Source of the DNA: Egibacteraceae bacterium
GTDB taxonomy: Bacteria; Actinomycetota; Nitriliruptoria; Euzebyales; Egibacteraceae
Reading direction: 5' to 3'
NCBI GenBank assembly: GCA_040905805.1
Contig: JBBDQS010000114.1
Coordinates: 61,410 to 97,968 of the forward strand
Length of the DNA stretch: 36,559 nucleotides
Part shown: one piece after another, positions 2,947-27,721 of the stretch
Layout: every line of letters begins with the position of its first letter
Position numbering within the stretch: position 1 is the stretch's first letter
The notes under the pieces: generated by a model
The model's database searches: none
What the model was told of the DNA's origin: nothing
Seen by the model: only the letters and a program-made list of their open reading frames with translations
Made by a program: the position numbers and the translations under genes

Positions 2947-4083
2947 GTGGTGCGGTTCGTGCACACGGCGGACTGGCAGCTCGGCATGACCCGCCACTTC
3001 CTCGCACCCGAGGCGCAAGCGCGCTTCGCCGACGCCCGCCTGTGCGCGGTGCGCGCGGTGGGAGAGGTCGCCGCCGAGCACGGCGCGGCCTTCGTCGTGG
3101 TCTGCGGCGACGTGTTCGAGTCCAACCAGGTCGACCGTCAGGTGGTCGTGCGGGCGCTGGAGGCGCTCGCGGCCTGCCCGGTGCCGGTGTATCTGCTGCC
3201 GGGCAACCACGACCCCCTCGACGCGGGGTCGGTGTACCGATCGCCCACGTTCATCGCGCACCGTCCCGCCAACGTCGCGGTGCTCGACGGCGACACGGTC
3301 GTGACCCCGTGCCCCGGCGTGGAGCTGCACGCCGCCCCGTGGCGGTCCAAGCGGCCGCTGGTCGACCTCGTCGCCCGCACCGTGGCGGACCTGGAGCCCG
3401 ACCCGGCAACGGTGCGCGTGGTCGTCGGCCATGGCGCGGTCGACGCGCTGGCCCACGGCCGGAACGAGGACCCGTCGGTGATCGTGCTGGCCGCCGCCGA
3501 GGCCGCCATCGCCCAGGGCCTGGTCGACTTCGTGGCGCTGGGCGACCGCCACTCGCTGACCGAGGTTGGGACCACCGGGCGGGTCTGGTACGCCGGCGCC
3601 CCCGAGCCCACCGACTACGACGAGGTCCTTCCCGGCCACGTGGCCCTGGTCGACGTCGACGCTGAGCAGGTGACCGTCACCCCCTGCCCGGTCGGCACCT
3701 GGCGGTTCGTGCGCTACGCCGCCGACCTGGACAGCCCGGCCGACGTCGCCGCGCTGGCGGCCTGGCTCGACGACCTGCCCGACAAGGAGCGCACGGTCGT
3801 GCAGCTGCGGCTGGTCGGCACCCTGGGCCTGCGCGACCACGCCAGCCTCAGTGCGCTGCTCGACCATCACCGCGACCTGCTCGGCGCGCTGGAGACACCC
3901 TCGCAGCACACCGGCCTGGCCGTGCGTCCCGACGACGCCGACTGCGACGCGATGGACCTGGCCGGGTTCGCGGCCGCGGCCCTGCGCGACCTGCAAGACG
4001 CCGCCGGCGCCGACGACGCGGCGCCGGTCGCCCGCGACGCCCTGGCCCTGCTGTACCGGTTGAGCACGGGAGCGCCGTCGTGA
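2947..4083 (+). CDS. sbcD: SbcD/Mre11-type exonuclease subunit
   Basis: Predicted metallophosphoesterase subunit of the SbcCD (Mre11-Rad50-like) complex, which trims DNA ends and cleaves hairpins in double-strand-break repair; 378 residues. Visible motifs are HTADWQLG at 6-13, CGDVFES with Asp55, GNHDP near 86, VGHGAVD near 161 and LGDRHS near 198. Motif I normally reads D-x-H; here Gln11 replaces the histidine, which could alter the first metal site. The GTG at 2947 is chosen because AAGGAGG lies 5-6 nt upstream and the protein then starts right before the first beta strand. The stop overlaps the start of the ATPase gene by 4 nt, so both subunits are made together. Confidence 0.85.
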   Translation: MVRFVHTADWQLGMTRHFLAPEAQARFADARLCAVRAVGEVAAEHGAAFVVVCGDVFESNQVDRQVVVRALEALAACPVPVYLLPGNHDPLDAGSVYRSPTFIAHRPANVAVLDGDTVVTPCPGVELHAAPWRSKRPLVDLVARTVADLEPDPATVRVVVGHGAVDALAHGRNEDPSVIVLAAAEAAIAQGLVDFVALGDRHSLTEVGTTGRVWYAGAPEPTDYDEVLPGHVALVDVDAEQVTVTPCPVGTWRFVRYAADLDSPADVAALAAWLDDLPDKERTVVQLRLVGTLGLRDHASLSALLDHHRDLLGALETPSQHTGLAVRPDDADCDAMDLAGFAAAALRDLQDAAGADDAAPVARDALALLYRLSTGAPS

Positions 4084-16128: not shown

Positions 16129-16884
16129 ATGTCCGGTCCGCTCGGGGTCATGTCGGTGATCCTGTTGGAGGCGGCCGTCGGCGGCGCCGTGGTGCTGTGG
16201 GCCAGCGGGGTCTGGGGCGCGGTCCGGCGGGGGTTCTTCGTCCTGACCGGGGTGACCCTCGCCCTCTGCGCGGTGGGAGCGTGGGCGATCACCCGCGGGC
16301 AGGTGGCAGGCCCGGAGGTGACCGCGCTCGGCGTGTTCGCCGCGCTCCTGGTCGTCTGGCAGGTCCTGCTCCTGGCCCGCCAGGAGGCCGTCTCCCGCGT
16401 GGTCGGCCTGGCCGGGACGGCAGCCGGCCTGGTGGCGCTCGCCATGTTCGGGCTGGCCCATGGGGTCAGCCCGGGGCTGGCGGTCGCGGAGCTCGCCCTG
16501 GGCGCGCTGTTCCTGGGTTCGACGTTGTTCGGGCTGCTGCTCGGGCACTGGTACCTCGTCGAGCGGCGCCTGACCAACGTCTACATGATCCGCGGGGCCT
16601 GGTGGTACATCGCCGGGGTCGTCGCCGCGGTGGGGGCGGCGGTGCTCTCGGCGCAGAACCCGCCGCCGGACCTGGGCGGGGGCTTCTCGCCCGTCCTGGT
16701 GGTACCGGGCTTCAGCGTCATGCTGGCGGTCGGCCTCGTGGCCGTCTGCGCCCTGATCGCCGGCTTCGTCTGGAAGCTCGCCAAGGAGGGCGGGCGCTCC
16801 ATCCAGGCGGCCACCGGCATGTTCTACCTCGCGGTGATCATGGCCTTCTCCGCGGAGCTCTCCACCAAGTTCCGCTTCTTCTGA
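16129..16884 (+). CDS. Multi-pass membrane protein
   Basis: Integral membrane protein of 251 residues with about seven or eight hydrophobic helices and no family I can name. Visible landmarks are LLLGHWYLVERRLTN in the middle and VWKLAKEGGRSIQAATGMFYL before the last helix. The conserved-looking H-W-Y and K/R pattern suggests a heme- or quinone-type membrane protein, but this is only impression. GAGGAG precedes the ATG at 16129. The end, STKFRFF then TGA, coincides with a 17-bp repeat found again at 19243, so this gene's 3' end was the attachment site of the neighbouring decayed island; the stop codon now present may be supplied by the inserted DNA. Confidence 0.8.
   Translation: MSGPLGVMSVILLEAAVGGAVVLWASGVWGAVRRGFFVLTGVTLALCAVGAWAITRGQVAGPEVTALGVFAALLVVWQVLLLARQEAVSRVVGLAGTAAGLVALAMFGLAHGVSPGLAVAELALGALFLGSTLFGLLLGHWYLVERRLTNVYMIRGAWWYIAGVVAAVGAAVLSAQNPPPDLGGGFSPVLVVPGFSVMLAVGLVAVCALIAGFVWKLAKEGGRSIQAATGMFYLAVIMAFSAELSTKFRFF
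16867..16883. repeat. 17-bp direct repeat, left copy (att-like)
   Basis: AAGTTCCGCTTCTTCTG, the last codons of the membrane-protein gene, recurs exactly at 19243-19259 in the same orientation. The flanks differ on both sides. Position at a gene's 3' end and at the edge of foreign-looking DNA fits an attL/attR pair. Confidence 0.65.
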
Positions 16885-16940
16885 GCCGGCGGGGCCGGCG
16901 GGGCCGTGACCAGCGGGTGTTCTAACTTTGCGACCTCATT

Positions 16941-17235
16941 GTGAGGCCGGTTGACCCCACGGTTGACCCCAACCAGGGTTTCGCTGCGTCGGCAAGCGGA
17001 CCGCTTGGTCCTCAATCTCTCTCCCCGCCCCTGTGGGCGGTCGCCGCCGGCCTGTGGACCGCCGATCAGCTCGAGGCAGCGATCGCCGTGATCGCCGCCA
17101 TGGTCGGCAGTGAGGCCGCGCTCACCGACGTGCGCCGCCGCGCCACCCCGGGCGTCGACCCCAAGACCATCAACGCCCGCGGCGAGGTCGAGGCGCTGGT
17201 GCCCGTCACCGTGCTGCACGCCAGCTCATGCCCTG
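16941..17235 (+). pseudogene. Gene fragment of unknown family
   Basis: From about 17030 this frame has typical GC-rich codon use and reads GLWTADQLEAAIAVIAAMVG, then VDPKTINARGEVEALVPVTV, a soluble-looking protein end that I cannot identify. It has no start of its own: the upstream part runs through the TTGACCCC repeats, and the frame beyond 17235 continues into sequence that codes better in another frame. It is treated as a remnant of an element gene. The rest of 16885-17030 shows only repeats. Confidence 0.35.
16949..16981. repeat. TTGACCCC repeats, left end of island
   Basis: Two copies of GGTTGACCCC lie 12 bp apart (16949 and 16961), followed by CCAGGGTTT (16973-16981). Related sequence in inverted order occurs at 19125-19152 and 19193-19201. 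Such arrays near both ends resemble arm-type binding sites of a tyrosine integrase; that role is inference. Confidence 0.5.
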
Positions 17236-17250
17236 ACCCCGCTGACCACG

Positions 17251-17549
17251 ATGTTCCTGCGGGGTCGCTGGGGTGCTGTGATACTGCGCGTGAGCCTGTC
17301 GCTAGCGCTCACGGCCATCGGCCTGGCGACCGCCGTGGCGATCGCCACGCTGCTGTGGCTGACCCTGGACGCCAGCGATCAGCGGCGACAGGCCGCCGAG
17401 CGCGCCGAGGCGCGCACCACCGCCGCCGTCCAGTGCGTCGCGCGCTGCTGCTCGTGCACCCTGACGTCCGCGATACAGACGCTGTCGAGCGCCTGTGCGG
17501 CGCCGAGATCACCGAGGGAGTGCGCGAGCGCATGGCGACCCCGCGATGA
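17251..17549 (+). pseudogene. Frameshifted small membrane protein
   Basis: ATG 17251 opens a frame with one membrane helix (LSLALTAIGLATAVAIATLL) followed by an amphipathic basic/acidic helix (DASDQRRQAAERAEARTTAA). At about 17445 coding character moves to another frame, which continues as LLLVHPDVRDTDAVERLCG and ends at 17549. Joined, the two pieces make a sensible single-pass protein of about 99 residues, so a one-base indel has probably broken it. No family recognised. A ribosomal slip cannot be excluded, but no slippery heptamer is evident. Confidence 0.45.
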
Positions 17550-17654
17550 TCAGGCGGTGGCTTGTTGTTCGCACGCGCCCATGGCGGGCTACGAGGGGGC
17601 CACGCATGGCGGACACCGGGAACCTGCAGCTGCCGAGCCACCCGAGGGCGGCGA

Positions 17655-18017
17655 CTAATGGTTCCGACGGCGGCCGGCGGGCGACCGCGAAGGCGGCGGT
17701 GGAGTACGAGAAGCCATGAAGACGGTCCCCTCGTGCACCACCAACTTCGGATCGGGCTTCTTCGAGGCAGACAGAGATCCGTCTGGCAGGACGAACTGGT
17801 GCACGCGCGCGACGATCTGCCCCTTGGACCAGTAGCAAACTTCCTCGCTGACCGTTCCGGACGGCTGACCGGAGGAGTCCCGCGGCCGGCCGCGCGCCTC
17901 CACCAAGGCCTGGAGTTCGCCAGCGAGCGCACGCTCATAGAACCGCTGCTCGTTGAACAGCCGGCGGAGTTCCTCAGGGGAGACGATGACCGGCCAGCCC
18001 TGGGTGGTGTCGCTCAT
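17655..18017 (-). CDS. Hypothetical protein, island cargo
   Basis: Protein of 120 residues without a recognised domain. It is mostly polar, with GWPVIVSPEELRRLFNEQRF at the start, a charged helix, then a beta-like half ending in KKPDPKLVVHEGTVF. That closing motif gives the impression of a conserved small cytoplasmic protein of integrated elements. The ATG at 18017 fits the start of coding character. It is divergent from the next gene, 74 nt between starts. The C-terminal 15 residues are Pro/Arg-rich and may be an extension after loss of the original stop. Confidence 0.55.
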   Translation of the reverse strand: MSDTTQGWPVIVSPEELRRLFNEQRFYERALAGELQALVEARGRPRDSSGQPSGTVSEEVCYWSKGQIVARVHQFVLPDGSLSASKKPDPKLVVHEGTVFMASRTPPPPSRSPAGRRRNH

Positions 18018-18045
18018 GCAGCCCCCGGCCGCGAGCTTAGAGCAG

Positions 18046-18051
18046 TAGACT
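18046..18051 (+). promoter_or_regulatory. -10 box for the 18092 gene
   Basis: TAGACT lies 40 nt before ATG 18092, with a good Shine-Dalgarno AAGGGGAGGG between. No clear -35 box is seen. Confidence 0.4.
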
Positions 18052-18091
18052 TCGCCTCAAGATGCAGCGAGTACGAGTCGAAGGGGAGGGT

Positions 18092-18448
18092 ATGGCGACC
18101 ATCGATTTCGTCGTCGGGTATCTCGACGGCGCTCTGGACTTCGACGATCTGCACGCGCGCGTGCAGACGACCCACCTGCGGCGCCGGCCAGACCAGTTCT
18201 CGGCGGAGGTGCTGCGCGTCATGGGCGAGGCGACGAGCGCGAACTGGCCGGACGAGGAGATACACGAGGCGCTGGGTGAGCTGGTGAAGCGCAGTCGCGC
18301 TCACGGCCACATCGCAGTCCCCACCTCGTCGCCTTCGGGACAGATCTCCGTCCGGCTTGGCGTGAAAAACAGCTACCTTCGCATCGCTGGCCATGGGGGT
18401 CACCGAACCGAGGGCAACACGCAGGAGCTCACGCACTCGGCTCTCTAA
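18092..18448 (+). CDS. Hypothetical protein, island cargo
   Basis: Protein of 118 residues, unrecognised. The first part reads MATIDFVVGYLDGALDFDDLH, followed by a helical acidic/basic region (SANWPDEEIHEALGELVKRS) and a beta-like C-terminal part (GQISVRLGVKNSYLRIAG). The start at ATG 18092 is supported by AAGGGGAGGG 3-10 nt upstream; an earlier ATG at 18062 is less likely. No membrane or secretion signal. It lies between two minus-strand genes and its 3' end overlaps the next by 4 nt. Confidence 0.55.
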   Translation: MATIDFVVGYLDGALDFDDLHARVQTTHLRRRPDQFSAEVLRVMGEATSANWPDEEIHEALGELVKRSRAHGHIAVPTSSPSGQISVRLGVKNSYLRIAGHGGHRTEGNTQELTHSAL

Positions 18449-18777
18449 AGCCCGAAGCCCGCACGTACGTCGGGGACGTCTGACTCCTTGACGCCCAACC
18501 CGATGTTGCGGAACTGGCAGCTCGAAAAGGTGCAGTTCTTCAGCCCCACGGCGCCGATGATGAGCTCTCGGGCGTCGGGGATCGTCCAGACGAGGGCGTC
18601 CCAGTCCGGCGCATCCCAGCCGCAGTTGATGATCGACACGCCTTCGACCAGGACGATCACCGCCGGCCCCACGATCGCGCAGTTGACAAACTCCACTCCT
18701 TCGATGAGGGGATCGTTGATCGCCCAGCGTGAGATCTCGACGACCTCGTTACGGGCCTCGCTCGGGTAGGGCTTCAT
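18445..18777 (-). CDS. Beta-helix-like hypothetical protein
   Basis: Protein of 110 residues. The middle has alternating short strands with cysteines and asparagines: EGVEFVNCAIVGPAVIVLVEG, then SIINCGW and GLKNCTFSSCQFRNIGLG. This periodicity recalls right-handed beta-helix or degenerate pentapeptide-repeat proteins, but no strict A(D/N)LxX repeat is present, so no family is claimed. ATG 18777 follows GGGAAG and a -10-like TATAAG on the minus strand (18786-18791). It converges with the 18092 gene by a 4-nt overlap. Confidence 0.55.
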   Translation of the reverse strand: MKPYPSEARNEVVEISRWAINDPLIEGVEFVNCAIVGPAVIVLVEGVSIINCGWDAPDWDALVWTIPDARELIIGAVGLKNCTFSSCQFRNIGLGVKESDVPDVRAGFGL

Positions 18778-18828
18778 TGGGCTTCCCTTATAGTGGCGGG
18801 AAGGGTTCTCGCCTCCCGGTAGGGGTCC

Positions 18829-18913
18829 AGAGTGTGTCATGCCGCGGCGCGGTGCACGCGCCGGCTACGGGAGTCACCTGGACCGGGACGGCGACGGCAT
18901 CGGCTGCGAGTGA
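18829..18913 (+). pseudogene. Excalibur-domain fragment
   Basis: The frame ending with TGA at 18911-18913 reads GYGSHLDRDGDGIGCE, the end of an Excalibur calcium-binding domain (D-R-D-G-D-G and final Cys-Glu). The preceding part of the domain (CHAAAR) is in another frame, so a frameshift and an upstream deletion have destroyed the gene, which normally encodes a secreted surface protein or nuclease. The remainder of 18914-19242 holds no intact gene; a short frame with WRIDKLDPLLDEFGG at 18930-19003 may be another scrap. Confidence 0.6.
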
Positions 18914-19124
18914 CCTTCCCGGCCTCGTCGATGGCGCATCGACAAACTCGACCCGCTCCTCGACGAGTTCGGCGGGCGACCCGGGGGGCCCAGCTAGCCG
19001 GCTTCGAGCGTGGCGGCGGCGGCGAGGATCTCATCGGGGGATGCTCGGACGGTACCTCGTCGTGGTCGGATCCAGCGTCCAACAGTGCGACACCGAGCGT
19101 GGCTACGACCCGGTACGGGCCAAG

Positions 19125-19152
19125 GGTTGACCCCAACCGTGACCCCAACCGG
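19125..19152. repeat. TTGACCCC repeats, right end of island
   Basis: GGTTGACCCCAACC followed by GTGACCCCAACCGG. The CCAACC ends are the reverse complement of the GGTTG starts of the left array at 16949. AAACCCTGG at 19193-19201 mirrors CCAGGGTTT at 16973-16981. Candidate arm-type sites of the lost integrase. Confidence 0.5.
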
Positions 19153-19242
19153 CTACGGCATCGGCCGCCACCGTGGGCGTGTGCGCCTGTGAAAACCCTG
19201 GTGGCGTCGACGGGTTCGGTACCGGGTCGGCAGCCGCGATCG

Positions 19243-19259
19243 AAGTTCCGCTTCTTCTG
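19243..19259. repeat. 17-bp direct repeat, right copy (att-like)
   Basis: Exact copy of the sequence at 16867-16883. Here it is followed by GCGCGG rather than AGCCGG, and 13 bp later by the stop codon of the EVE gene remnant. Confidence 0.65.
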
Positions 19260-19272
19260 GCGCGGCTGCGGG

Positions 19273-19359
19273 TCAGCTCGCGGCCTGCGCCAGGGCAAAG
19301 CGGACGACCGCGAAGTCCGACTCGGGCCACGCGCGGATGTTGCCTTGGAAGGCGAGCTT
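19273..19359 (-). pseudogene. C-terminal fragment of split EVE gene
   Basis: On the minus strand this segment encodes KLAFQGNIRAWPESDF and twelve further residues before TGA. That is the usual EVE-domain ending, and it is exactly what is missing from the truncated EVE gene at 27362-27721. Joining TAC at 27368-27370 to AAG at 19357-19359 gives an uninterrupted frame (EHY-KLAFQG) of about 146 residues. The fragment has no start and is separated from the rest by the 8.0-kb element. Confidence 0.9.
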
Positions 19360-19370
19360 CTAACCCTTGC
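19348..19370. other. Left attachment junction of serine element
   Basis: Crossover core TT at 19358-19359. To the left is EVE coding sequence; to the right the element arm CTAACCCTTGC (19360-19370), which is 9/11 complementary-inverted to the right-end arm. Confidence 0.75.
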
Positions 19371-19431
19371 CTTGAGGGGTAAGTAGCGGCATGATGACGG
19401 CACGCCCCACCGAGCGAGGGAGTGCCACCCA

Positions 19432-20874
19432 ATGATCGCCACCGACGCCACCGTGAGAGTGGCCCTGTACGCCCGCATCTCCAAGGATGACCGCCACACC
19501 GAGAAGGGCGTCACCCGCCAGCTCGAGGACGGGCGCAAGCTCGCCGCTGACCGCGGCTGGATCGTGGCCGGCGAGTACGTCGACAACGACCGCTCCGCGT
19601 TCAACGGCAAAGAGCGCGCCGAGTGGCGCCGTCTCCTGGCCGACGCCCCCGGGCTCGACCGCGTGGTCGCCTGGCAGCTCGATCGACTGTGGCGCAACAG
19701 CGCCGAGCGCGTCGCCGATGCCGAGACTCTCGCCCGGGCCCGCGTCGGGCTGACCCTGACGCAGGGCGGAGACTACGATCTCGCCACCGCGGCCGACGGG
19801 CTCACCACGGGCGTGCTCGGCGAGCTGGCTGCGTTCGAGTCGAGGTTGAAGGGCGAGCGGGTCTCCCGTGCTGCCCGCCAACGGGCCGAGGAAGGCAAGG
19901 CGAACACGGTAGTGCTGTACGGGTGGCGCCGCGAGCGCGAGTACGACCAGGCCGGCCGCGTGGCCGCGTGGTGGGACGTCGAGGAGCCGACCGAGGCCGA
20001 CATCGTGCGCGACGTGGTGCGCCGCATCCTCGACGGCGAGCCGATCACCCGGATAGCCGAGGACCTGAACGCGCGCGGCGTGGTGCCCCCGTCGCGGCGC
20101 CCCGACAAGGCATGGTCGCGCTCGGGGGTGCGCGCGCTCGCGCTGCGCCCCGCGAACGCCGGGGTGCGCACCTACAAGGGCGAGACGTTCCCGGCCGCGT
20201 GGCCGGCGCTGGTGACCGCTGAGCAGCATGAGCGCGTGTGCGCGCTCCTGGCCCGCCGCAGTAGCGGCAAGGGCCAGCGGCCGGCCTCGCGCAAGTATCT
20301 GCTCTCGGGCGGGATCGGCGAGTGCGGCGTGTGCAACGGGCCGCTGCGCGGCCGGCGCAAGCGCAACCCCCGCGGCCAGGAGTTCGAGCTGTACGTCTGC
20401 CGGGATCGTGGCTGCGTCGGCCGCAACCGTGAGGCCGTAGACGAGTGGGTCGCCGCCGTGGTCACCGAGCGCCTGGCCCGCCCCGACGCCGCCGAAGTGT
20501 TCGCCCCCGACGACGAGGCCGCCCGCGCGGCACTCGACCGTGCCGAGGGCGTGCGCGCTCGCCTCGACAACGCCGCCGACGCCTACGCCGAGGGCACCAT
20601 CGACCGGGACCAACTCGCGCGGATCAGCGGCAAGCTGCGCCCCGTGCTCGACCAGCTCGAAGGCGAGGCGAGGCGCCTGTCGGCCGGCGCGAACCTCGGC
20701 GTGCTCGGGCCCCTGCTCGCCGACCACGCCGGCGCAGTGTGGGCCGGGCTTGACGTGGCACGGCAACGCCGCGTGCTGGAGGTCCTGGGGCTGCGCGTGA
20801 CCGTCATGCCGCAGCGGGACACCGCTGGCCCTAGGTTCGACCGCGACCTTGTGCGGATCTCCTGGCGGGCCTAG
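19432..20874 (+). CDS. Large serine integrase
   Basis: Large serine recombinase of 480 residues that integrates and excises the element. The N-terminal resolvase domain has YARISKDD with nucleophile Ser17, the QLDRLWRN stretch and GELAAFESRLKGERVSRA. The recombinase domain (about 160-290) follows, with ITRIAEDLNARGVVPPSR. The zinc ribbon is seen as GECGVCNGPL and YVCRDRGCVGR at about 300-330, then a coiled-coil segment with Ala/Arg/Glu repeats. It lies 73 bp inside the left junction, the usual place. Its stop codon shares CTAG with the stop of the convergent gene. The dyad at the junctions with a 2-bp core is what this class of enzyme uses. Confidence 0.95.
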   Translation: MIATDATVRVALYARISKDDRHTEKGVTRQLEDGRKLAADRGWIVAGEYVDNDRSAFNGKERAEWRRLLADAPGLDRVVAWQLDRLWRNSAERVADAETLARARVGLTLTQGGDYDLATAADGLTTGVLGELAAFESRLKGERVSRAARQRAEEGKANTVVLYGWRREREYDQAGRVAAWWDVEEPTEADIVRDVVRRILDGEPITRIAEDLNARGVVPPSRRPDKAWSRSGVRALALRPANAGVRTYKGETFPAAWPALVTAEQHERVCALLARRSSGKGQRPASRKYLLSGGIGECGVCNGPLRGRRKRNPRGQEFELYVCRDRGCVGRNREAVDEWVAAVVTERLARPDAAEVFAPDDEAARAALDRAEGVRARLDNAADAYAEGTIDRDQLARISGKLRPVLDQLEGEARRLSAGANLGVLGPLLADHAGAVWAGLDVARQRRVLEVLGLRVTVMPQRDTAGPRFDRDLVRISWRA

Positions 20875-21173
20875 ACGTCGAGGCCGACCACGACCTCCCG
20901 GCGCTTGGCCGCCGCCTTGCCCGCCGCCTTGACGAGCCGCTCCGCATTCACGGCCCGCTTGAGCTTCCGGCAGCGGGGACAGCGCAGATGTACGAGGGGG
21001 GTCACTGGACCGTCCTGCCACCGCAGCACCACGTTGCGGACGTGGGGCCCGTCTACCCGCAGACCCTGCGCGGTGCCGAGGCGCTTGCCACACGCGCAGC
21101 GGATCGGCACCGCTGGCATGCGACCGTGACGACGGTCAACCGTGGGGCGAGAACGACGTTCGCGTAACTCCAT
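20871..21173 (-). CDS. Small zinc-ribbon protein
   Basis: Protein of 100 residues (82 if translated from ATG 21119). Two metal-binding knuckles are visible: CACGK near the start and LRCPRCRKLKR near the middle, followed by a basic alanine/lysine tail; a nucleic-acid-binding or regulatory role is plausible. ATG 21173 is favoured because a minus-strand -10 box TAGCAT (21181-21186) ends 7 nt before it, giving a leaderless mRNA, while ATG 21119 has no Shine-Dalgarno. However, codons 1-18 use more T/A third positions than the rest. It is divergent from the replication operon and could be its repressor or an excision factor; neither is shown. Confidence 0.65.
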   Translation of the reverse strand: MELRERRSRPTVDRRHGRMPAVPIRCACGKRLGTAQGLRVDGPHVRNVVLRWQDGPVTPLVHLRCPRCRKLKRAVNAERLVKAAGKAAAKRREVVVGLDV

Positions 21174-21177
21174 AAGC

Positions 21178-21190
21178 GATATGCTACACT
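21178..21190. promoter_or_regulatory. Overlapping divergent promoters
   Basis: An AT-rich island in GC-rich DNA. On the plus strand TATGCT (21180-21185) or TACACT (21185-21190) can serve as -10 for the replication operon; on the minus strand TAGCAT (21181-21186) serves the zinc protein. The two promoters overlap, so only one can be occupied at a time. Confidence 0.5.
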
Positions 21191-21305
21191 GCGGGGCACA
21201 ACAGAACCGGGACCGGGCACGCGCCCAACCCCCGGCGGGCACGAGGCAGCCCGACGAAGCCTCGCACCGATCCGCCGCACGCGGACGGCTGCGAGGTGAT
21301 GGCCG

Positions 21306-21617
21306 ATGGCCGCCAGCAGACCCCTACCCCCGCCCGATCGTGCCCTGCGTGCACGCATGGCTGCGCACGCATCGTGGGCGAAGACCTCCGACCCGGCGGC
21401 GCGCACCGCGCCGGCGCGTGAGGCGATGCGCACCCGGTTCCTCGACGAGGTCGACCCAGACCGGGTGCTGCCCGAGGCCGAGCGTGTCCGTCGCGCCGGA
21501 CACGCCCGCCAGGCCTACATGGCTGGGCTGGCACTGAAGGCAGCGAAGGCTCGTCGCCTGCGTTCCGAGGCTGACCAGCTCGACACCGAGGCCGCCGAGG
21601 CCGAGGGTGCGGCATGA
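21306..21617 (+). CDS. Hypothetical element protein
   Basis: Protein of 103 residues with no named domain. It contains MAAHASWAKTSDPAARTAPA, a pattern I associate with small conserved proteins next to replication genes in actinobacterial integrative elements and phages, and a helical basic middle (VRRAGHARQAYMAGLALKAA). First gene of the element's replication operon. The start at ATG 21306 follows GAGGTGATGG. Its stop overlaps the next start in ATGA. Confidence 0.7.
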   Translation: MAASRPLPPPDRALRARMAAHASWAKTSDPAARTAPAREAMRTRFLDEVDPDRVLPEAERVRRAGHARQAYMAGLALKAAKARRLRSEADQLDTEAAEAEGAA

Positions 21618-21766
21618 CGGCCGCCGACCGCGCCACGCTGCGCGACCTCGCCCGCCAGGTCGCCGCCGACGCCCCGCCGCTGAGCGCGCAACAGGTACGC
21701 GCGATTCGGCGAGTGATCCGCACCGCGCCGCAGGAGTCGCGCCAGCCGGCGCGTGACGCCGCATGA
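21614..21766 (+). CDS. 50-residue element protein
   Basis: Short gene of 50 codons: MTAADRATLRDLARQVAADA, then PLSAQQVRAIRRVIRTAP and a short tail. It is helical and basic at the end. It starts in the ATGA overlap with the previous gene and ends in an ATGA overlap with the next, and codon use matches the neighbours, so it is very likely translated. Function unknown. Confidence 0.65.
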   Translation: MTAADRATLRDLARQVAADAPPLSAQQVRAIRRVIRTAPQESRQPARDAA

Positions 21767-22203
21767 GCCCCCCGAACGAGAAACGCCGCCCCGGTGAGGG
21801 GGGCGGCGCCGAGATCTCGACCGGGCGACGGACGAACAACCTCACCCCGGAGTGTACTCCGCGGCTGTCCCCGGGCCCGCCATGCCGCCCCGGCTGCGCG
21901 CTCGTCTGCTCGGTCGCGAGCTGGTCGCACGTCCTCGATGATCGCAACCCGGCGCCTCCGCACTGGCGGCTTTGCTGGGCGATTGTCGGCCTGCCGGTCC
22001 CGCTGCGCCCCGGCGAGTGGCCCGACCTGCTCGACGCGTTCGAGGCCGCGTACGGGACTGGCGAGCTGGTGGTCGGCCTGCGCATGACCGCGGCGACACC
22101 GCCCCTGAGCGCTGGCTGCGGTGCCCCGTGGCTGGCCGCCGACCGCGCGCGCGCGGGGGCCTTGCTCGCCGCCGCCGAGCGACGTCTGGCGGTGGCGGCA
22201 TGA
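21763..22203 (+). CDS. Hypothetical element protein
   Basis: Protein of 146 residues, unrecognised. After a charged start it has a cysteine-containing segment (PCRPGCALVCSVASWSHVL) and then WRLCWAIVGLPVPLRPGEWP, a helical region and an alanine-rich end. The cysteines could bind a metal but are not spaced as a standard ribbon. Coupled by ATGA overlaps to the genes on both sides. The N-terminal 45 residues may be a linker; an internal start is possible. Confidence 0.55.
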   Translation: MSPPNEKRRPGEGGGAEISTGRRTNNLTPECTPRLSPGPPCRPGCALVCSVASWSHVLDDRNPAPPHWRLCWAIVGLPVPLRPGEWPDLLDAFEAAYGTGELVVGLRMTAATPPLSAGCGAPWLAADRARAGALLAAAERRLAVAA

Positions 22204-23711
22204 CGGACTGGGTCCGTGAGGTTGCCCTCGCCGATTTCGTGGCCGCGCACGGCCGCCAGCCCACGGGCGCCGAGTTGCGAGAGCTCGTGCCACCACCCGC
22301 GGTCGACACGTCCGGGCTCGTGGTCCCGCCCGCCGAGAATCCCGGCGCCGGCCCGCCTGGCCTCGTGGCCCCCAGCGACGCGCCGCACCCGGCCGACGGC
22401 CCGCCCCGGCCGAACCGCCACGGCCAGCCAAGGGCGACGGCCGTCCAGAACGGGCAGGTGCGCGGACCGGCGCCGCCGCTGCTCACCCGCAGGCTGGCCG
22501 ACGTGCCCGCCGAAGAGGTCGCGTGGCTGTGGGACGGGCGCATCCCCTACGGCAAGTTGACCGTACTGGCCGGTGACCCCGGCGTGGGCAAGTCCTACCT
22601 GACCATGGCCTTGGCCACCGCGGTCACTCTCGGCGTGGCACTACCCGAGGACTCCCGCGCCCCCGACGGGCCCGGCGACGTGCTCATGGCCTCCTACGAG
22701 GACGACCCCGGCGACACGCTGCGCCCTCGCGCGAACCGTCTCGGCGCCGCCTCTGACCGCTTGGTCATCATCGACGGGGCGGCCGGCGAGGACGGCAAGC
22801 CGCGCCCGTTCTGCGCCGACGACGTGGAATCCCTGGCCGTCACCCTCGACGAGCTCGAACGTCCCCGCCTGCTCGTCATCGACCCCGTGGCGGCATGGGT
22901 CGGCGGCGGGCTGGACACCTACAGAGACAACGAGGTGAGGGCCGCACTTGAGGGCCTGCGTCGCCTCGCCGCCGAGCGCCGCGTCGCGGTGCTGTGTGTC
23001 ATGCACCTACGCAAGTCCGCTGCCAGCAGCGCCCTGGCCCGCCTGTCCGGCTCGGGCGCCTACGGCCAGCTCGTGCGCTCGGCGTTGCTGGCCGGGCGCG
23101 ACCCCGACGACGAGACCCGCTGCGCCCTCGCGCACGTCAAACACAACCTGGCCGCCAAGCAGCCCACCATCGGCTACCGCATCGACGACCTCGGGCTGAC
23201 GTGGACTGGGATTGTGGAGGACCTCGATGGTGAGCGCCTCGCCGGCCACGACCAGGACGACGAGCGGTCCCGCCTCGACGAGGCCAAGGCGTTCCTCCTT
23301 GAGGAGCTGCCGTTGCCCAGCGACGAGGTCATCTCGCGGGCCGGGAAGGTGGGGATCGCCGAGAAGACCCTACGGCGCGCGAAGAAGGCACTGAGGGTCG
23401 CTTCGGTCAAGAGCGCCGAGGCGTGGCGATGGGTCCTGCCTGAAGATGGCCAGCCCGAACCAAGGCGGCCAACCCCCAACCAGCAACCCGCCGTGACCAG
23501 CGAAGATGGCCAAGGCGCCCATACATACATCTATGGGCAGGTTGGCCACCTTGACCAGGCGGGTGCTAGCGAAGGTGCCCCGGAAGGTGGGTCGCGTGAT
23601 GCGTCCGCATGGTCGACCGCGGACACCGCCGCGCCGTGCGTCGCATGCGGGCACCCCGCCCTCCTGCGCGACCTCGCCGGTGACCCCCGACACAAGGACT
23701 GCCCGCTATGA
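22200..23711 (+). CDS. RepA-like AAA ATPase (replication)
   Basis: 503-residue ATPase of the RepA/AAA_25 type found in plasmids and phages, where it acts as a replicative helicase or loader. Walker A GDPGVGKSY is at 125-133 and Walker B RLLVIDPVAAW at about 224-234. Downstream come VAVLCVMHLRKSAASSA (sensor-like) and SGSGAYGQLVRSALLAG, both typical of this family. Residues 1-105 are a proline-rich leader with a helical start, and the tail (about 395-503) has a winged-helix-like part (PSDEVISRAGKVGIAEKTL), then a low-complexity linker and a final CVACGHPAL knuckle. The ATGA-coupled start at 22200 leaves no doubt of operon membership. It suggests that the excised element replicates. Confidence 0.85.
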   Translation: MTDWVREVALADFVAAHGRQPTGAELRELVPPPAVDTSGLVVPPAENPGAGPPGLVAPSDAPHPADGPPRPNRHGQPRATAVQNGQVRGPAPPLLTRRLADVPAEEVAWLWDGRIPYGKLTVLAGDPGVGKSYLTMALATAVTLGVALPEDSRAPDGPGDVLMASYEDDPGDTLRPRANRLGAASDRLVIIDGAAGEDGKPRPFCADDVESLAVTLDELERPRLLVIDPVAAWVGGGLDTYRDNEVRAALEGLRRLAAERRVAVLCVMHLRKSAASSALARLSGSGAYGQLVRSALLAGRDPDDETRCALAHVKHNLAAKQPTIGYRIDDLGLTWTGIVEDLDGERLAGHDQDDERSRLDEAKAFLLEELPLPSDEVISRAGKVGIAEKTLRRAKKALRVASVKSAEAWRWVLPEDGQPEPRRPTPNQQPAVTSEDGQGAHTYIYGQVGHLDQAGASEGAPEGGSRDASAWSTADTAAPCVACGHPALLRDLAGDPRHKDCPL

Positions 23712-24043
23712 CCGGCGGGACGGCCGTCACGCTGCGATGCGCCGGTGGCCTGCACGGCGCCTGCCCGTCGTGCGCCTGCCGGTGCCACGACGCCCAGCTC
23801 GACCTGCTCACCACCCTGACCGACCCCGACTACGGAGGACCGCTGATGACCGCACACCCGCGAAGCCGGGGGGCCAAACCCCGGGGGGAGGTCGCCGAAG
23901 CCCGGGCCCGCGTCGACACCCTCCGCCGCCTGGTGGCCACCCGCCAGGCTGGAGCCGCCGCGCTGCACGTTGCCGAGTACCGCCTACAAGCTGCGCTCGA
24001 CCGCCTCGCCGAGGACGACGACGACGGCCCGGCCGCGGCATGA
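23708..24043 (+). CDS. Cys-rich hypothetical element protein
   Basis: Protein of 111 residues, last gene of the replication operon, starting in an ATGA overlap. The N-terminus has a dense cysteine group (LRCAGG, then GACPSCACRCHDAQ) that could bind zinc. The second half is a basic linker followed by a long amphipathic helix (EARARVDTLRRLVATRQAG) and an acidic end. A start at the internal ATG 23846, giving the helical half alone, is also possible. No family recognised. Confidence 0.55.
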   Translation: MTGGTAVTLRCAGGLHGACPSCACRCHDAQLDLLTTLTDPDYGGPLMTAHPRSRGAKPRGEVAEARARVDTLRRLVATRQAGAAALHVAEYRLQAALDRLAEDDDDGPAAA

Positions 24044-24285
24044 AGGGGCGAGGCATGGGGCGAGGGGAGGGGGGCGGTGTGGTGGCGTACGAACAGGACG
24101 GCCCTCCGCAACCCAGCAGACCTCGAAAACTCAGACGTACAAGATGGAAGCTGTTTTTGCCGGGGGCGCAGCTTTCCCCGGGGGGCGCGAACACGGGGGG
24201 CGGGTGCTCAGGGGGTGGAGGATTGGGGAATCTCCCCATTGCCCTCCATCTCGTCGCGCACGCCGCCCACCGTCCCGCGGCGAGG

Positions 24286-24313
24286 AAGGTTGGTGCAGAT
24301 CTGCCCCAACCTT
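24286..24313. repeat. 28-bp near-perfect palindrome
   Basis: Arms AAGGTTGGTGCAGA and TCTGCCCCAACCTT match at 13 of 14 positions, with centre AGATCT. No T-run follows, so it is not a standard terminator. Candidate binding site for a dimeric replication, packaging or regulatory protein. Confidence 0.8.
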
Positions 24314-24423
24314 GGCCAAGCGATCACGGCGACCGCGACCGACCGCAGCTCCAGGCCGGGAGAGGGCGGGGCCCCGGGGGGGACACCCCTCGGCGGGTCG
24401 AGGGGGGCGCCTGCCGCAACCCC

Positions 24424-24451
24424 TTGCCACGTTCCTGACGTCGTCTAGGAC
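24424..24451 (+). promoter_or_regulatory. Packaging-operon promoter
   Basis: TTGCCA (24424-24429) and TAGGAC (24446-24451) with 16-bp spacing precede the small terminase gene, whose ATG 24487 has AGGAGG 7 nt upstream. Confidence 0.4.
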
Positions 24452-24486
24452 ACTGAGGACTTGTTGATTCCCGCAGGAGGTGGCTC

Positions 24487-24912
24487 ATGGCCGGTCGAGG
24501 ACGCCCACCGGAGGAGGAGCGCCGCAACCCGTCGGACGTGCCGATCCGCGGCGAGTGGAAGGCCGCCCCCGGCGTGGGGTGGCAGCACGGCGAGGTCCCC
24601 CCGCCCCCGGCCGGGCTGCTCAAGGCGTCGCGGCAGGCGTGGCAGGCGTGGATGGGCGGATGGTTCGCCGCCTTCTGGACGCCCGATGACCTGCCCGCCC
24701 TGCGCCATCTCGTGCGCCTGTACGACCAGGTGGAGCGCGGCGAGTTCCACCGGGCCGGCGAGCTGCGGCTGCTGATGGACACCTACGGCGCGACCCCCAA
24801 GGGCCGCCAGGACCGGCGTTGGAAGCCGCCGGCAGAGGAGCGCCCGCCGGGCACTCCGTCCGCGCCCCGCTACGGCCATCTACGCCCCGTCGAGCAAGGA
24901 GAGACACCATGA
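24487..24912 (+). CDS. Phage terminase small subunit
   Basis: 141-residue protein resembling P27-type small terminase subunits, which recognise the packaging site on DNA and recruit the large terminase. The centre reads PPPPAGLLKASRQAWQAW, then WFAAFWTPDDLPALRHLV and RLYDQVERGEFHRAGELRLL, ending with DTYGATPKGRQDRRW, the usual order in this family. AGGAGG gives a strong start at ATG 24487. There is no large terminase gene anywhere in the element, so this subunit would have to redirect another phage's motor or act alone as a regulator. Confidence 0.8.
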   Translation: MAGRGRPPEEERRNPSDVPIRGEWKAAPGVGWQHGEVPPPPAGLLKASRQAWQAWMGGWFAAFWTPDDLPALRHLVRLYDQVERGEFHRAGELRLLMDTYGATPKGRQDRRWKPPAEERPPGTPSAPRYGHLRPVEQGETP

Positions 24913-25151
24913 CCGACCCACAGACCCAGACCATCATCGCCCGCTCGGAGGAGCTGCTGCGCCGCGCCGAGGAGCTGTCCACCCGCGTCGCCGCCGGCGA
25001 GTTCGCCGAGGACACCGCCTGCGCCCGCCTCGACGAGATCGCCGGGGAGCAGGCGTACCTACGCGCCCAGCTGCTGGCGGGCCTCGACGATGTGGCGGCC
25101 GAGCAACGGGAGGCGTGGGAGCGGTTCTACGGCCGCGACGCGGCCGTCTGA
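24909..25151 (+). CDS. Small coiled-coil element protein
   Basis: 80-residue, almost entirely helical acidic protein: RSEELLRRAEELSTRVAAGE and a second helix EQAYLRAQLLAGLDDVAAEQ. Likely a coiled coil. It starts in an ATGA overlap with the small terminase gene and ends 182 bp before the capsid gene, in the slot where a prohead protease would usually be found. It could be a scaffold or size-determination protein, but nothing in the sequence proves it. The gap 25152-25333 holds no gene. Confidence 0.65.
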   Translation: MTDPQTQTIIARSEELLRRAEELSTRVAAGEFAEDTACARLDEIAGEQAYLRAQLLAGLDDVAAEQREAWERFYGRDAAV

Positions 25152-25333
25152 TACGATGGCCCTGCCACCGTGGCGACTGCGGCCCCCCGTCAAACGGCTG
25201 TCGCACCGCCGCTGGCTAGTGCCCCTCCGGGCCGCCCAAGGGCCCCCCGGGTGAGGACGGCGAACCGTTGACCGTCAAGCGACGACGTGCGCGCTCAGCG
25301 CCTCGTCGCTCACCCGCATGAGGAGGCACCACC

Positions 25334-26650
25334 GTGGGAATCCAGGAGCTGCAGGATGAGCTGAAGGCCAAGCGCGCCAAGCGCGACGGCCTCGCCGAGG
25401 AGCTGCAGGGCGTCGCCGAGCAGCTGACCACCAAGTCGGCCGACGCCGGCCTGATCGAGCGCAGCAAGCGCCTGCGAGCGGGCGTGACGAAGCTGGACGC
25501 CGAGATCGGCGAGAAGCGCGGCGCGTGGGAAGCCGAGGTGAGCCGCGCCTACAAGGCGGGCGAGCTTGACGGCAACCTCGAAGCCGGCACCGCCGGCATG
25601 ACGCTCCCCACCACCCGCGGCCTGAAGGACCGCGACCGCTTGGGCAAGGGCGAGTCCGTCGCTGACTGGTGCAAGGCCAAGGGCGTGGACGACGGCAGCC
25701 TGGCCTCGGGCGTCGACCCCGACGAGGCGTGGGGCGCGTGGTTCAAGGGGTACGTCTCCGGCGAATGGCGCGACTTCAAGCAGATGACGAAGGACATGAG
25801 CTCATCGCCCGACTCCGCTGGCGGGTTCATCGTCCCGACGGTGCTGTCGGCCCGCGTCATCGACCTGCTGCGCGCCTCCAACCCGATCTTCCAGGCCGGC
25901 GCGCAGACGGTCCCGATGACCTCCAAGACGCTGGACATCGCCCGCATCGGCGCGGACGTGGACGCGACGTGGCACGCCGAGGGCGCCGCGATCACCGCGT
26001 CAGACGTGACCCTGGAGCGCGTGCGGTTCACCGCAAAGACCCTGCCGGTCTTGTGCAAGGCGAGCCGTGAGCTGGCCGAGGACGCACCGAACGCTGGCAG
26101 CGTCGTGGCGCAGTCCATCGCCGGGGCGACCGGCGTTGCCGTCGCCAAGGCGGCCCTACGCGGCGACGGCACCGGCAACGCTCCGACCGGCATCCGCAAC
26201 CAAACCGGCGTGACCGTGACCGAGCTGGGCGCGGGGAACGGCGACGACGCCGACTACGACAGCTTCCTCGACGCCATCCGCGACATCGCGCTGGCGAACG
26301 CCGCGGCCGGCGCGGCGATCCTCAACCCGCGCACCGAGTCGTCCCTCAACAAGCGCAAGGCCTCGGATGGCGCCTACCTGACACCGCCCCAGGCCTACTC
26401 CGCCCTCGGGCGGTTCGCCACGACTGCGATCCCCACGGACCTGACCGTGGGCACGTCGACCGAGACGACCGAGGCCTACGTGGGCGACTTCACCAAGCTG
26501 CTGATCGGCATGCGCGCCCAACTGCGCATCGAACCGTTGCGCGAACGCTTCGCTGACAGCGGGCAGGTGGCGTGGCTGTCGTGGCTGCGCATGGACGTCC
26601 AGCTAGAGCAGCCCAAGGCGTTCGTGGCCCTCACGGGGATCACGAACTGA
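25334..26650 (+). CDS. HK97-fold major capsid protein
   Basis: Phage major capsid protein of 438 residues. Residues 1-70 are a coiled coil (MGIQELQDELKAKRAKRDGL) of the scaffold-like delta domain, then a linker leads to SSSPDSAGGFIVPTVLSARV at about 157-176, where mature HK97-type subunits begin. The core has FQAGAQTVPMTSKTL, KTLPVLCKASRELAEDAP (spine helix), GDGTGNAPTGI and the closing FVALTGITN. The frame is complete, with a GTG start at 25334 preceded by GAGGAGGC. No protease gene lies upstream to cut the delta domain. Capsid genes of this kind occur in phiRv1-type elements and in capsid-encoding satellites. Confidence 0.9.
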   Translation: MGIQELQDELKAKRAKRDGLAEELQGVAEQLTTKSADAGLIERSKRLRAGVTKLDAEIGEKRGAWEAEVSRAYKAGELDGNLEAGTAGMTLPTTRGLKDRDRLGKGESVADWCKAKGVDDGSLASGVDPDEAWGAWFKGYVSGEWRDFKQMTKDMSSSPDSAGGFIVPTVLSARVIDLLRASNPIFQAGAQTVPMTSKTLDIARIGADVDATWHAEGAAITASDVTLERVRFTAKTLPVLCKASRELAEDAPNAGSVVAQSIAGATGVAVAKAALRGDGTGNAPTGIRNQTGVTVTELGAGNGDDADYDSFLDAIRDIALANAAAGAAILNPRTESSLNKRKASDGAYLTPPQAYSALGRFATTAIPTDLTVGTSTETTEAYVGDFTKLLIGMRAQLRIEPLRERFADSGQVAWLSWLRMDVQLEQPKAFVALTGITN

Positions 26651-26784
26651 TGGGCGTCGTCGACACCGGCGGCCTGGAGATCCTCGCCGAGATCGAGCGC
26701 GACCGCTGGGACGACCTCGTGCATCCCGACGAGGAACCCCGCCGCGAAGGCGTCCCGCTCGAACTCTGGCGGGCGCTGCGCTGA
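26650..26784 (+). CDS. 44-residue element protein
   Basis: Small acidic protein: MGVVDTGGLEILAEIERDRW, then DDLVHPDEEPRREGVPLELW. Start ATG 26650 overlaps the capsid stop codon by one base and its own stop overlaps the next ATG by one base. Codon use matches the neighbours. Unknown role; position suggests head assembly. Confidence 0.55.
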   Translation: MGVVDTGGLEILAEIERDRWDDLVHPDEEPRREGVPLELWRALR

Positions 26785-27059
26785 TGGCCATCGAAGCTGA
26801 GCGGGTGACCGTCACGGATACCGCGGTCGCCCTCAACGACGGCATTGACGACCACATCCACGGCTACTCGGTGCTCGTCACCAACCGTGCCGCCACGACC
26901 TCCATCGACCTCGGCCCGTCCGGTGTCACCTCGGGCGCCGGGGTCGAGCTGAAGGCCGGCGAGTCCATCTCCCTGGACCTCACCGGGGGCGACGTCATCT
27001 ACGCCGTCGCCCCCGCACTGGAAACCCCCCGTGTCGACGTCTTGCGGGTGGGGGTCTAG
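26784..27059 (+). CDS. Small beta-rich structural-type protein
   Basis: 91-residue protein made of short strands: ERVTVTDTAVALNDGIDD, then YSVLVTNRAATTSIDLGPSG and ELKAGESISLDLTGGDVIYA. It looks like a single beta-sandwich domain of the sort found as capsid decoration or head-tail proteins. It follows the capsid and the 44-residue gene without gaps. No exact family assigned. Confidence 0.65.
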   Translation: MAIEAERVTVTDTAVALNDGIDDHIHGYSVLVTNRAATTSIDLGPSGVTSGAGVELKAGESISLDLTGGDVIYAVAPALETPRVDVLRVGV

Positions 27060-27164
27060 GTGGCCCGCATCCGCATCGCCCCGCCGTCAGGACTGCTCAG
27101 TAAGCAGCTCGGCCGCCTGCGTGCAGGGGGTCACGGCCGCCGCATCCTTCTGGTGAAGCTCTAA
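27060..27164 (+). CDS. 34-residue basic peptide
   Basis: GTG directly after the previous stop codon opens a 34-codon frame reading VARIRIAPPSGLLSKQLGRL and ending in GRRILLVKL before TAA. Highly basic. Its coupling to the preceding gene supports translation, but it is short. It could be the start of a longer gene (for instance a head-tail protein) lost from this reduced element. Confidence 0.4.
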   Translation: MARIRIAPPSGLLSKQLGRLRAGGHGRRILLVKL

Positions 27165-27354
27165 CGGCGTGGCGGCGCCCCAGACGTGCGCGGCGAGGGC
27201 GCGACGGGGCCGTCGAGGGGTCGGGGGCCCGGGTGGCGCGAGGCGTGGCACCTCGTTGCTGCCGGCGCCCCGCCGCGCACACCACCACCCGGGGGGCTAC
27301 CCTGCGCGCGGGCGCCTTGGGAAGGGCCCTCGCCATGTAAAGTGGCCTCCTAAC

Positions 27355-27378
27355 GCAAGACTTAGTTGTAGTGCTCGC
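27355..27378. other. Right attachment junction of serine element
   Basis: Element arm GCAAGACTTAG (27355-27365) then core TT (27366-27367), then EVE coding sequence. When the ends are rejoined, the arm faces CTAACCCTTGC from the left end across the TT core, an inverted repeat with 9 of 11 positions matching, as expected of attP for a serine integrase. Confidence 0.75.
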
Positions 27379-27721
27379 GCGGCCACTTCTTGGGGAACTG
27401 GAGGTCCTCGTAGAGGCTGTCGACGGGTACCCAGGCCTCGGGGTCGGAGAGCACCACCTCGGGGCTGATCTCGACGCGCCAGGGGTAGTCCTCGCCCGGC
27501 TTGGACTCCCAGATCGGCTCGTGGTCCTCGAAGACGCTGCTCGTCACCTCGACGACCGCCCCGAAGGCCACGTGCCTGGTGACGTAGTACACGATCTTGT
27601 CGCCGGGGGCGATCTCGCGGGCGGTCTTGCCGCGGCGGGACTTGATGCCCTGCACCTTCCAGCCCAGCGCTGCCGTGCGGGCGAAGTTGTCCGGCGACGT
27701 GGTCAGGCACCAGACGCCCAC
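27362..27721 (-). CDS. EVE-domain protein, truncated by insertion
   Basis: N-terminal 119 residues of an EVE-domain protein; the fold (PUA-like) recognises modified nucleobases or RNA. It reads MGVWCLTTSPDNFARTAALG, WKVQGIKSRRGKTAREIAPG, DKIVYYVTRHVAFGAVVEVT and FPKKWPREHYN, then TAA. Complete family members continue with about 28 more residues (LAFQGN...), which are found at 19273-19359. The Asn codon and stop are contributed by the inserted element at its right junction. Translation begins at GTG 27721, 3 nt after the O-methyltransferase stop on the same strand, so the pair forms an operon. Without the last strand and helix the protein may be unstable or altered. Confidence 0.9.
   Translation of the reverse strand: MGVWCLTTSPDNFARTAALGWKVQGIKSRRGKTAREIAPGDKIVYYVTRHVAFGAVVEVTSSVFEDHEPIWESKPGEDYPWRVEISPEVVLSDPEAWVPVDSLYEDLQFPKKWPREHYN

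Follow-up and report, generated by a model that had tools for sequence, protein, structure and literature searches.

A phage-related element of 8,008 bp lies within an EVE-domain gene of an Egibacteraceae bacterium, where it was most probably (about 0.9) integrated by the serine integrase that it encodes, at a TT core inside the gene. This reading, which agrees with the initial annotation, is supported by the empty sites found in relatives, the neighbouring genes kept around them, the symmetry of attP and the intact integrase gene next to attL. The window, i.e. the whole stretch of DNA analysed here, comprises 36,559 nucleotides, and all positions without another label refer to it. The features on which the argument draws are as follows:

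19273-19357, minus strand: split EVE gene (host), C-terminal end with its stop codon; the TT core completes codon 119
19358-19359: TT core at attL, from the junction join and arm symmetry
19360-19383: right arm of attP, on the element side of attL, CTAACCCTTGCCTTGAGGGGTAAG; 15 of 24 positions symmetric with the other arm
19360-27367: entire element, 8,008 bp from one crossover point to the other, from the junction join
19432-20874, plus strand: large serine integrase, 480 aa (PF00239, 5.5e-23; PF07508, 5.4e-13; phrog_95, 1e-87)
21306-21617, plus strand: small protein, phrog_2842, common to related elements (56-57% in L038 and L051)
22194-23711, plus strand: AAA_25 replication-type ATPase (PF13481, 2.9e-36)
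24487-24912, plus strand: weak small-terminase-like or minor-tail-like ORF (PF25673, 8.8e-5, below the cut-off; phrog_226, 2.1e-6)
25334-26650, plus strand: HK97-type major capsid protein, 438 aa (PF05065, 3.6e-41; phrog_10, 2.1e-47)
26784-27059, plus strand: small ORF following the capsid gene, without a family match
27342-27365: left arm of attP, on the element side of attR, GTGGCCTCCTAACGCAAGACTTAG, from arm symmetry
27366-27367: TT core at attR, from the junction join and arm symmetry
27368-27721, minus strand: split EVE gene, N-terminal 118 codons (host), from coordinates, Pfam and orthologs

The N-terminal part of the EVE gene begins at 27721 and contributes 118 whole codons (27368-27721), codon 119 (AAG) spans the TT, and the C-terminal codons extend from 19359 to the stop at 19273-19275 (TCA on the plus strand). 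Taking out 19360-27367 joins the two pieces at their common TT (19358-19359 and 27366-27367) and yields an open frame of 146 amino acids, ending in EHYKLAFQGNIRAWPESDFAVVRFALAQAAS before the stop. An in-frame split at these positions, and an element of 8,008 bp with exact junctions, had both been proposed by the initial annotation; every coordinate was reproduced, and the recomputed length between the crossover points is identical. The joined protein matches the Pfam EVE family (PF01878) above the cut-off (E=8e-8) and an intact ortholog has a match at 1.3e-10 to the solved structures of PH1033, a UPF0310 protein (1wmm, 2hd9 and 2zbn), which together place the gene among EVE-domain proteins of the UPF0310/PH1033 type.

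The initial annotation had also proposed a search for an uninterrupted EVE gene in related genomes. The named relatives compared are Egibacter, Egibacteraceae and Nitriliruptorales assemblies, in keeping with a host that probably belongs in or close to the actinobacterial class Nitriliruptoria. Full-length, stop-free EVE orthologs, 66-75% identical, are present in 12 genomes of the family (Egibacteraceae/Nitriliruptoria). In these, as in the named Egibacter and Nitriliruptoria assemblies, the intact orthologs are contiguous across the junction and cross it at the same codon, which places the junction beyond chance. The sequence at this point is uninterrupted and nearly always reads W-K/R-L-A-F-Q-G-N. 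The right flank of EVE, with its O-methyltransferase and sigma-factor genes, is kept across relatives, whilst on the left a membrane-protein gene (16129-16884) is kept in several genomes. With 12 uninterrupted orthologs and kept neighbours, the insertion passes the test set by the initial annotation, which had named a different sequence at the EVE site in related genomes as the outcome that would speak against it. The kept neighbours on both sides also bear on whether the junctions are assembly errors, the least credible of the explanations considered here. The host genome is a draft of 166 contigs, which would allow for such errors, but the two junctions fall well within a single contig (C114), the ends fit an exact serine-integrase insertion and the GC content of the element equals that of its flanks.

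Several relatives have lost the gene by other routes. In the only other genome of the same genus that was compared (G001, locus L096), EVE is largely deleted, so that the genus offered no empty site for comparison; at about 3948-4070 of that locus the gene is cut to its first ~16 and last ~14 codons by an internal deletion, with no element present. The two neighbours of EVE directly adjoin one another in G012, without EVE between them, other sequence occupies the space between them in G011, and the EVE remnant of G007 is frameshifted. Because the gene is deleted, decayed or lost in these four genomes, EVE seems to be dispensable in this group. The G007 fragment, which ends near residue 109, was considered as a further insertion close to this site and rejected, as the gene is a pseudogene broken by a frameshift and lacks a neighbouring integrase.

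A separate second insertion is seen immediately to the left of EVE (16867-19259). A 17-bp direct repeat, AAGTTCCGCTTCTTCTG, found at 16867 and 19243, covers the 3' end of the membrane-protein gene and bounds 2.4 kb of lower-GC DNA (0.684) containing small ORFs; where scanned, these had no Pfam match, and no integrase was recognised among them. The motifs GGTTGACCCC/TGACCCCAACC are repeated just within both ends of this island (16949-16974 and 19125-19150) and are possibly integrase arm sites. G001 lacks the island, and its two genes are nearly adjacent.

The att sites have the form found with large serine integrases, in that the sites have only a short core in common and the attP arms constitute an inverted repeat around a 2-bp core. 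In the reconstructed circle the arms are symmetric about TT at 9 of 11 and 15 of 24 positions. Scores at this level recur at 0.1% and 0.2% of window positions, respectively, the 9/11 match being equalled at just 37 of 36,533. The TT core and the 9/11 inverted repeat described initially were thus reproduced, but TT is not all that the junctions have in common: in one register they have TTnTA, plus CT at +8, so that TT and TA are nearby candidate crossover points. The distinction matters for codon 118 (27368-27370), which adjoins the core and reads TAC (Tyr) in the rejoined gene; the 18 orthologs in the alignment all have Trp (TGG) there, and a further relative has Cys. A crossover at TT consequently needs this change to have been in the host already, or to have arisen by drift after insertion. 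Were the crossover instead at TA, 3 bp away, the host gene would already have stopped at codon 118 (TAG) and have been broken before the element arrived. TA is common to both junctions in the same register, TGG becomes TAG by one change and TAC only by two, and EVE decays in the family without any element. Against this, the attP symmetry vanishes when centred on TA, falling to 3 of 11 and 4 of 24 positions. Serine integrases require a non-palindromic core for control of orientation; TT qualifies, whilst a palindromic core such as TA is unusual for these enzymes. A TA crossover is accordingly improbable, and the simplest account of the tyrosine codon in a gene entered at TT would be relaxed selection, before or after insertion.

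The integrase contains Resolvase and Recombinase domains, a YARIS motif and a cluster of cysteines; the YxRxS catalytic serine of the Resolvase domain, the Recombinase domain and a Cys-rich zinc region identify it as a large serine integrase of the phiC31/Bxb1 type. Its ATG at 19432 is confirmed as lying 73 bp from the left junction, as first annotated. The closest integrase found, from a Nitriliruptoria genome (G036), is 51% identical and likewise matches phrog_95, and three others from the same order (G024, G028 and G029) are 46-49% identical over their best-aligned parts. Unlike the integrase of the element, these four adjoin one other conserved gene rather than EVE. That gene appears to be cut at the same place beside each of them (L033-L036; FPGG-G..T...PGHGDDTT). 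No Pfam name was obtained for it; by eye its PGHGDDTT motif recalls metallo-hydrolases, and no identity is claimed. The best phage matches are serine integrases ~43% identical over their full length, from the mycobacteriophages Agent47, Collard, Larva and others; these are phages of 61-63 kb, in contrast to the 8,008 bp of the element. Single-sequence scans with the integrase (genome and viral contigs) and with the capsid protein (viral contigs) returned no relatives, which leaves no second integration of the element to compare, and neither a second copy in another genome nor an excised form was found.

The insertion strips the last 28 of the 146 EVE residues, and the interrupted frame stops one residue past the junction, giving a product of 119 amino acids that ends in EHYN. 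In a confident structure prediction for an intact ortholog (mean pLDDT 94.7), the junction falls within helix 115-122, whilst strand 126-129 and the C-terminal helix 131-144 fall in the lost part. Residues L120-A121-F122 and G124, invariant in the ortholog alignment, are also gone from the truncated protein. The loss of this LAF-G block together with the last strand and the last helix makes it very likely that the EVE protein is inactivated. Whether this inactivation serves either party is a different matter. EVE is a modified-base-binding domain (PMC7641849), and the element might target the gene because its loss favours the element, for instance if EVE senses modified DNA of phages or satellites; integration would then be a landing site and a counter-defence step at once. 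The losses of EVE in relatives that lack this element argue against any special role for it in removing the gene. No observation made here speaks specifically for the proposal, which we regard as very improbable. Slighter still is the chance that insertion and excision act as a reversible, regulated off/on switch of EVE that is useful to the host. The junctions are exact and excision would restore the gene, but exact restoration is general for serine integrases, several relatives have lost EVE without any element and no directionality factor was identified in the element.

What kind of element this is can be judged with less assurance. Apart from the weak match at 24487-24912, none of the element ORFs scanned against Pfam and PHROG families was recognisable as a terminase large subunit, portal or tail gene, which makes a reduced satellite borrowing from a helper phage, or a remnant of one, the most likely interpretation. 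As a small island that combines integration machinery with a gene for a major capsid protein, the element corresponds to the definition of a candidate actinobacterial satellite (PMC10654092). The Mycobacterium 'candidate PICIs' of that study combine an integrase with a major capsid protein, some having serine integrases, and comparable elements are common in that genus. Like the present element, they are small and integrated and carry an integrase, a replication-type ATPase and a major capsid protein, and those with serine integrases likewise do not insert at tRNA genes (PMC10654092). The likeness is one of gene content only; the host class and the EVE target are different, and portal and TerL are unrecognised here. 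The cf-PICIs, as outlined in PMC10690885, also encode their own major capsid protein, but they possess a full head set and terminases. In the present element, portal, protease, connectors and large terminase are without a family match and there is only a weak small-terminase-like match, so that it is not assigned to that group.

Further comparisons come from relatives of individual genes. The best capsid relatives in IMG/VR are mostly on short contigs (4-12 kb), which may be incomplete; most have a portal gene adjacent and some have TerL, and several of those on short contigs or small elements carry an integrase together with the capsid module. A set of IMG/VR loci (L099-L125) contains many contigs of this size with a related capsid gene, usually a portal and sometimes TerL and an integrase, and possibly represents a sizeable set of small capsid-module elements. 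In L051, a phrog_2842 protein, an AAA_25 ATPase and a capsid gene occur together with portal and TerL, whilst L050 is a short element with a tyrosine integrase, a helicase and a capsid gene, and without a portal or TerL of the L051 type. The host genome has no PF04860 portal match and no PF03354 TerL match, and thus shows no sign of a helper prophage of this kind.

On this gene content, a satellite that moves with the aid of a helper phage, or a remnant of such a satellite, is the interpretation that we somewhat favour. Neither this satellite-like character nor the decay of EVE in the family had featured in the initial annotation. The same integration event would also be compatible with an immobile deletion remnant of an ordinary prophage, which is a less likely, though serious, alternative. 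The recognisable genes are just the integrase, the ATPase, the capsid gene and small ORFs, and a portal gene adjoins the capsid gene in most capsid relatives. Yet both att ends are intact, as are the genes for the integrase, the ATPase and the capsid protein; L050 is one of the other small elements that have a capsid gene without portal or TerL, and the abundance of comparable elements in Mycobacterium (PMC10654092) also weighs against a prophage remnant.

The insertion itself is shown by comparison of the sequences. In our reading, a circularised 8,008-bp element, bearing an attP of the form ...GCAAGACTTAG-TT-CTAACCCTTGC..., recombined with the 2-bp TT core of attB inside codon 119 of the chromosomal EVE gene, a reaction presumably catalysed by the large serine integrase of the element, given the position and type of its gene. 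This left attL beside the integrase gene, with attR within EVE. Functions missing from the element may be borrowed from a helper phage, unless it is a remnant, and re-excision would require a directionality factor.

In a survey of 6,207 large serine recombinases, 82.8-88.3% of clusters target only 1-3 host gene clusters (PMC10083194), so that finding a new target gene for an integrase of this class is to be expected. The same survey saw no enrichment of targets within defence genes or close to them (PMC10083194). The initial annotation had considered EVE not to be a commonly described target, and full-text literature searches, which were not exhaustive, returned no earlier account of integration into an EVE gene. 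Neither integrase nor attachment is mentioned in a review of EVE (PMC7641849), and EVE as a target is absent from the main text of the survey, whose list of targets is in its supplement (PMC10083194). EVE thus appears to be an unreported target, and the case a new instance of an ordinary kind of event. It defines, to the base, the attP and attB of an uncharacterised integrase whose closest relative found is 51% identical, and the attB is a conserved coding site within EVE in a group for which few genetic tools exist. One more small capsid-bearing element is thereby placed among the actinobacterial satellites, and the current view of how such elements work is left unchanged.
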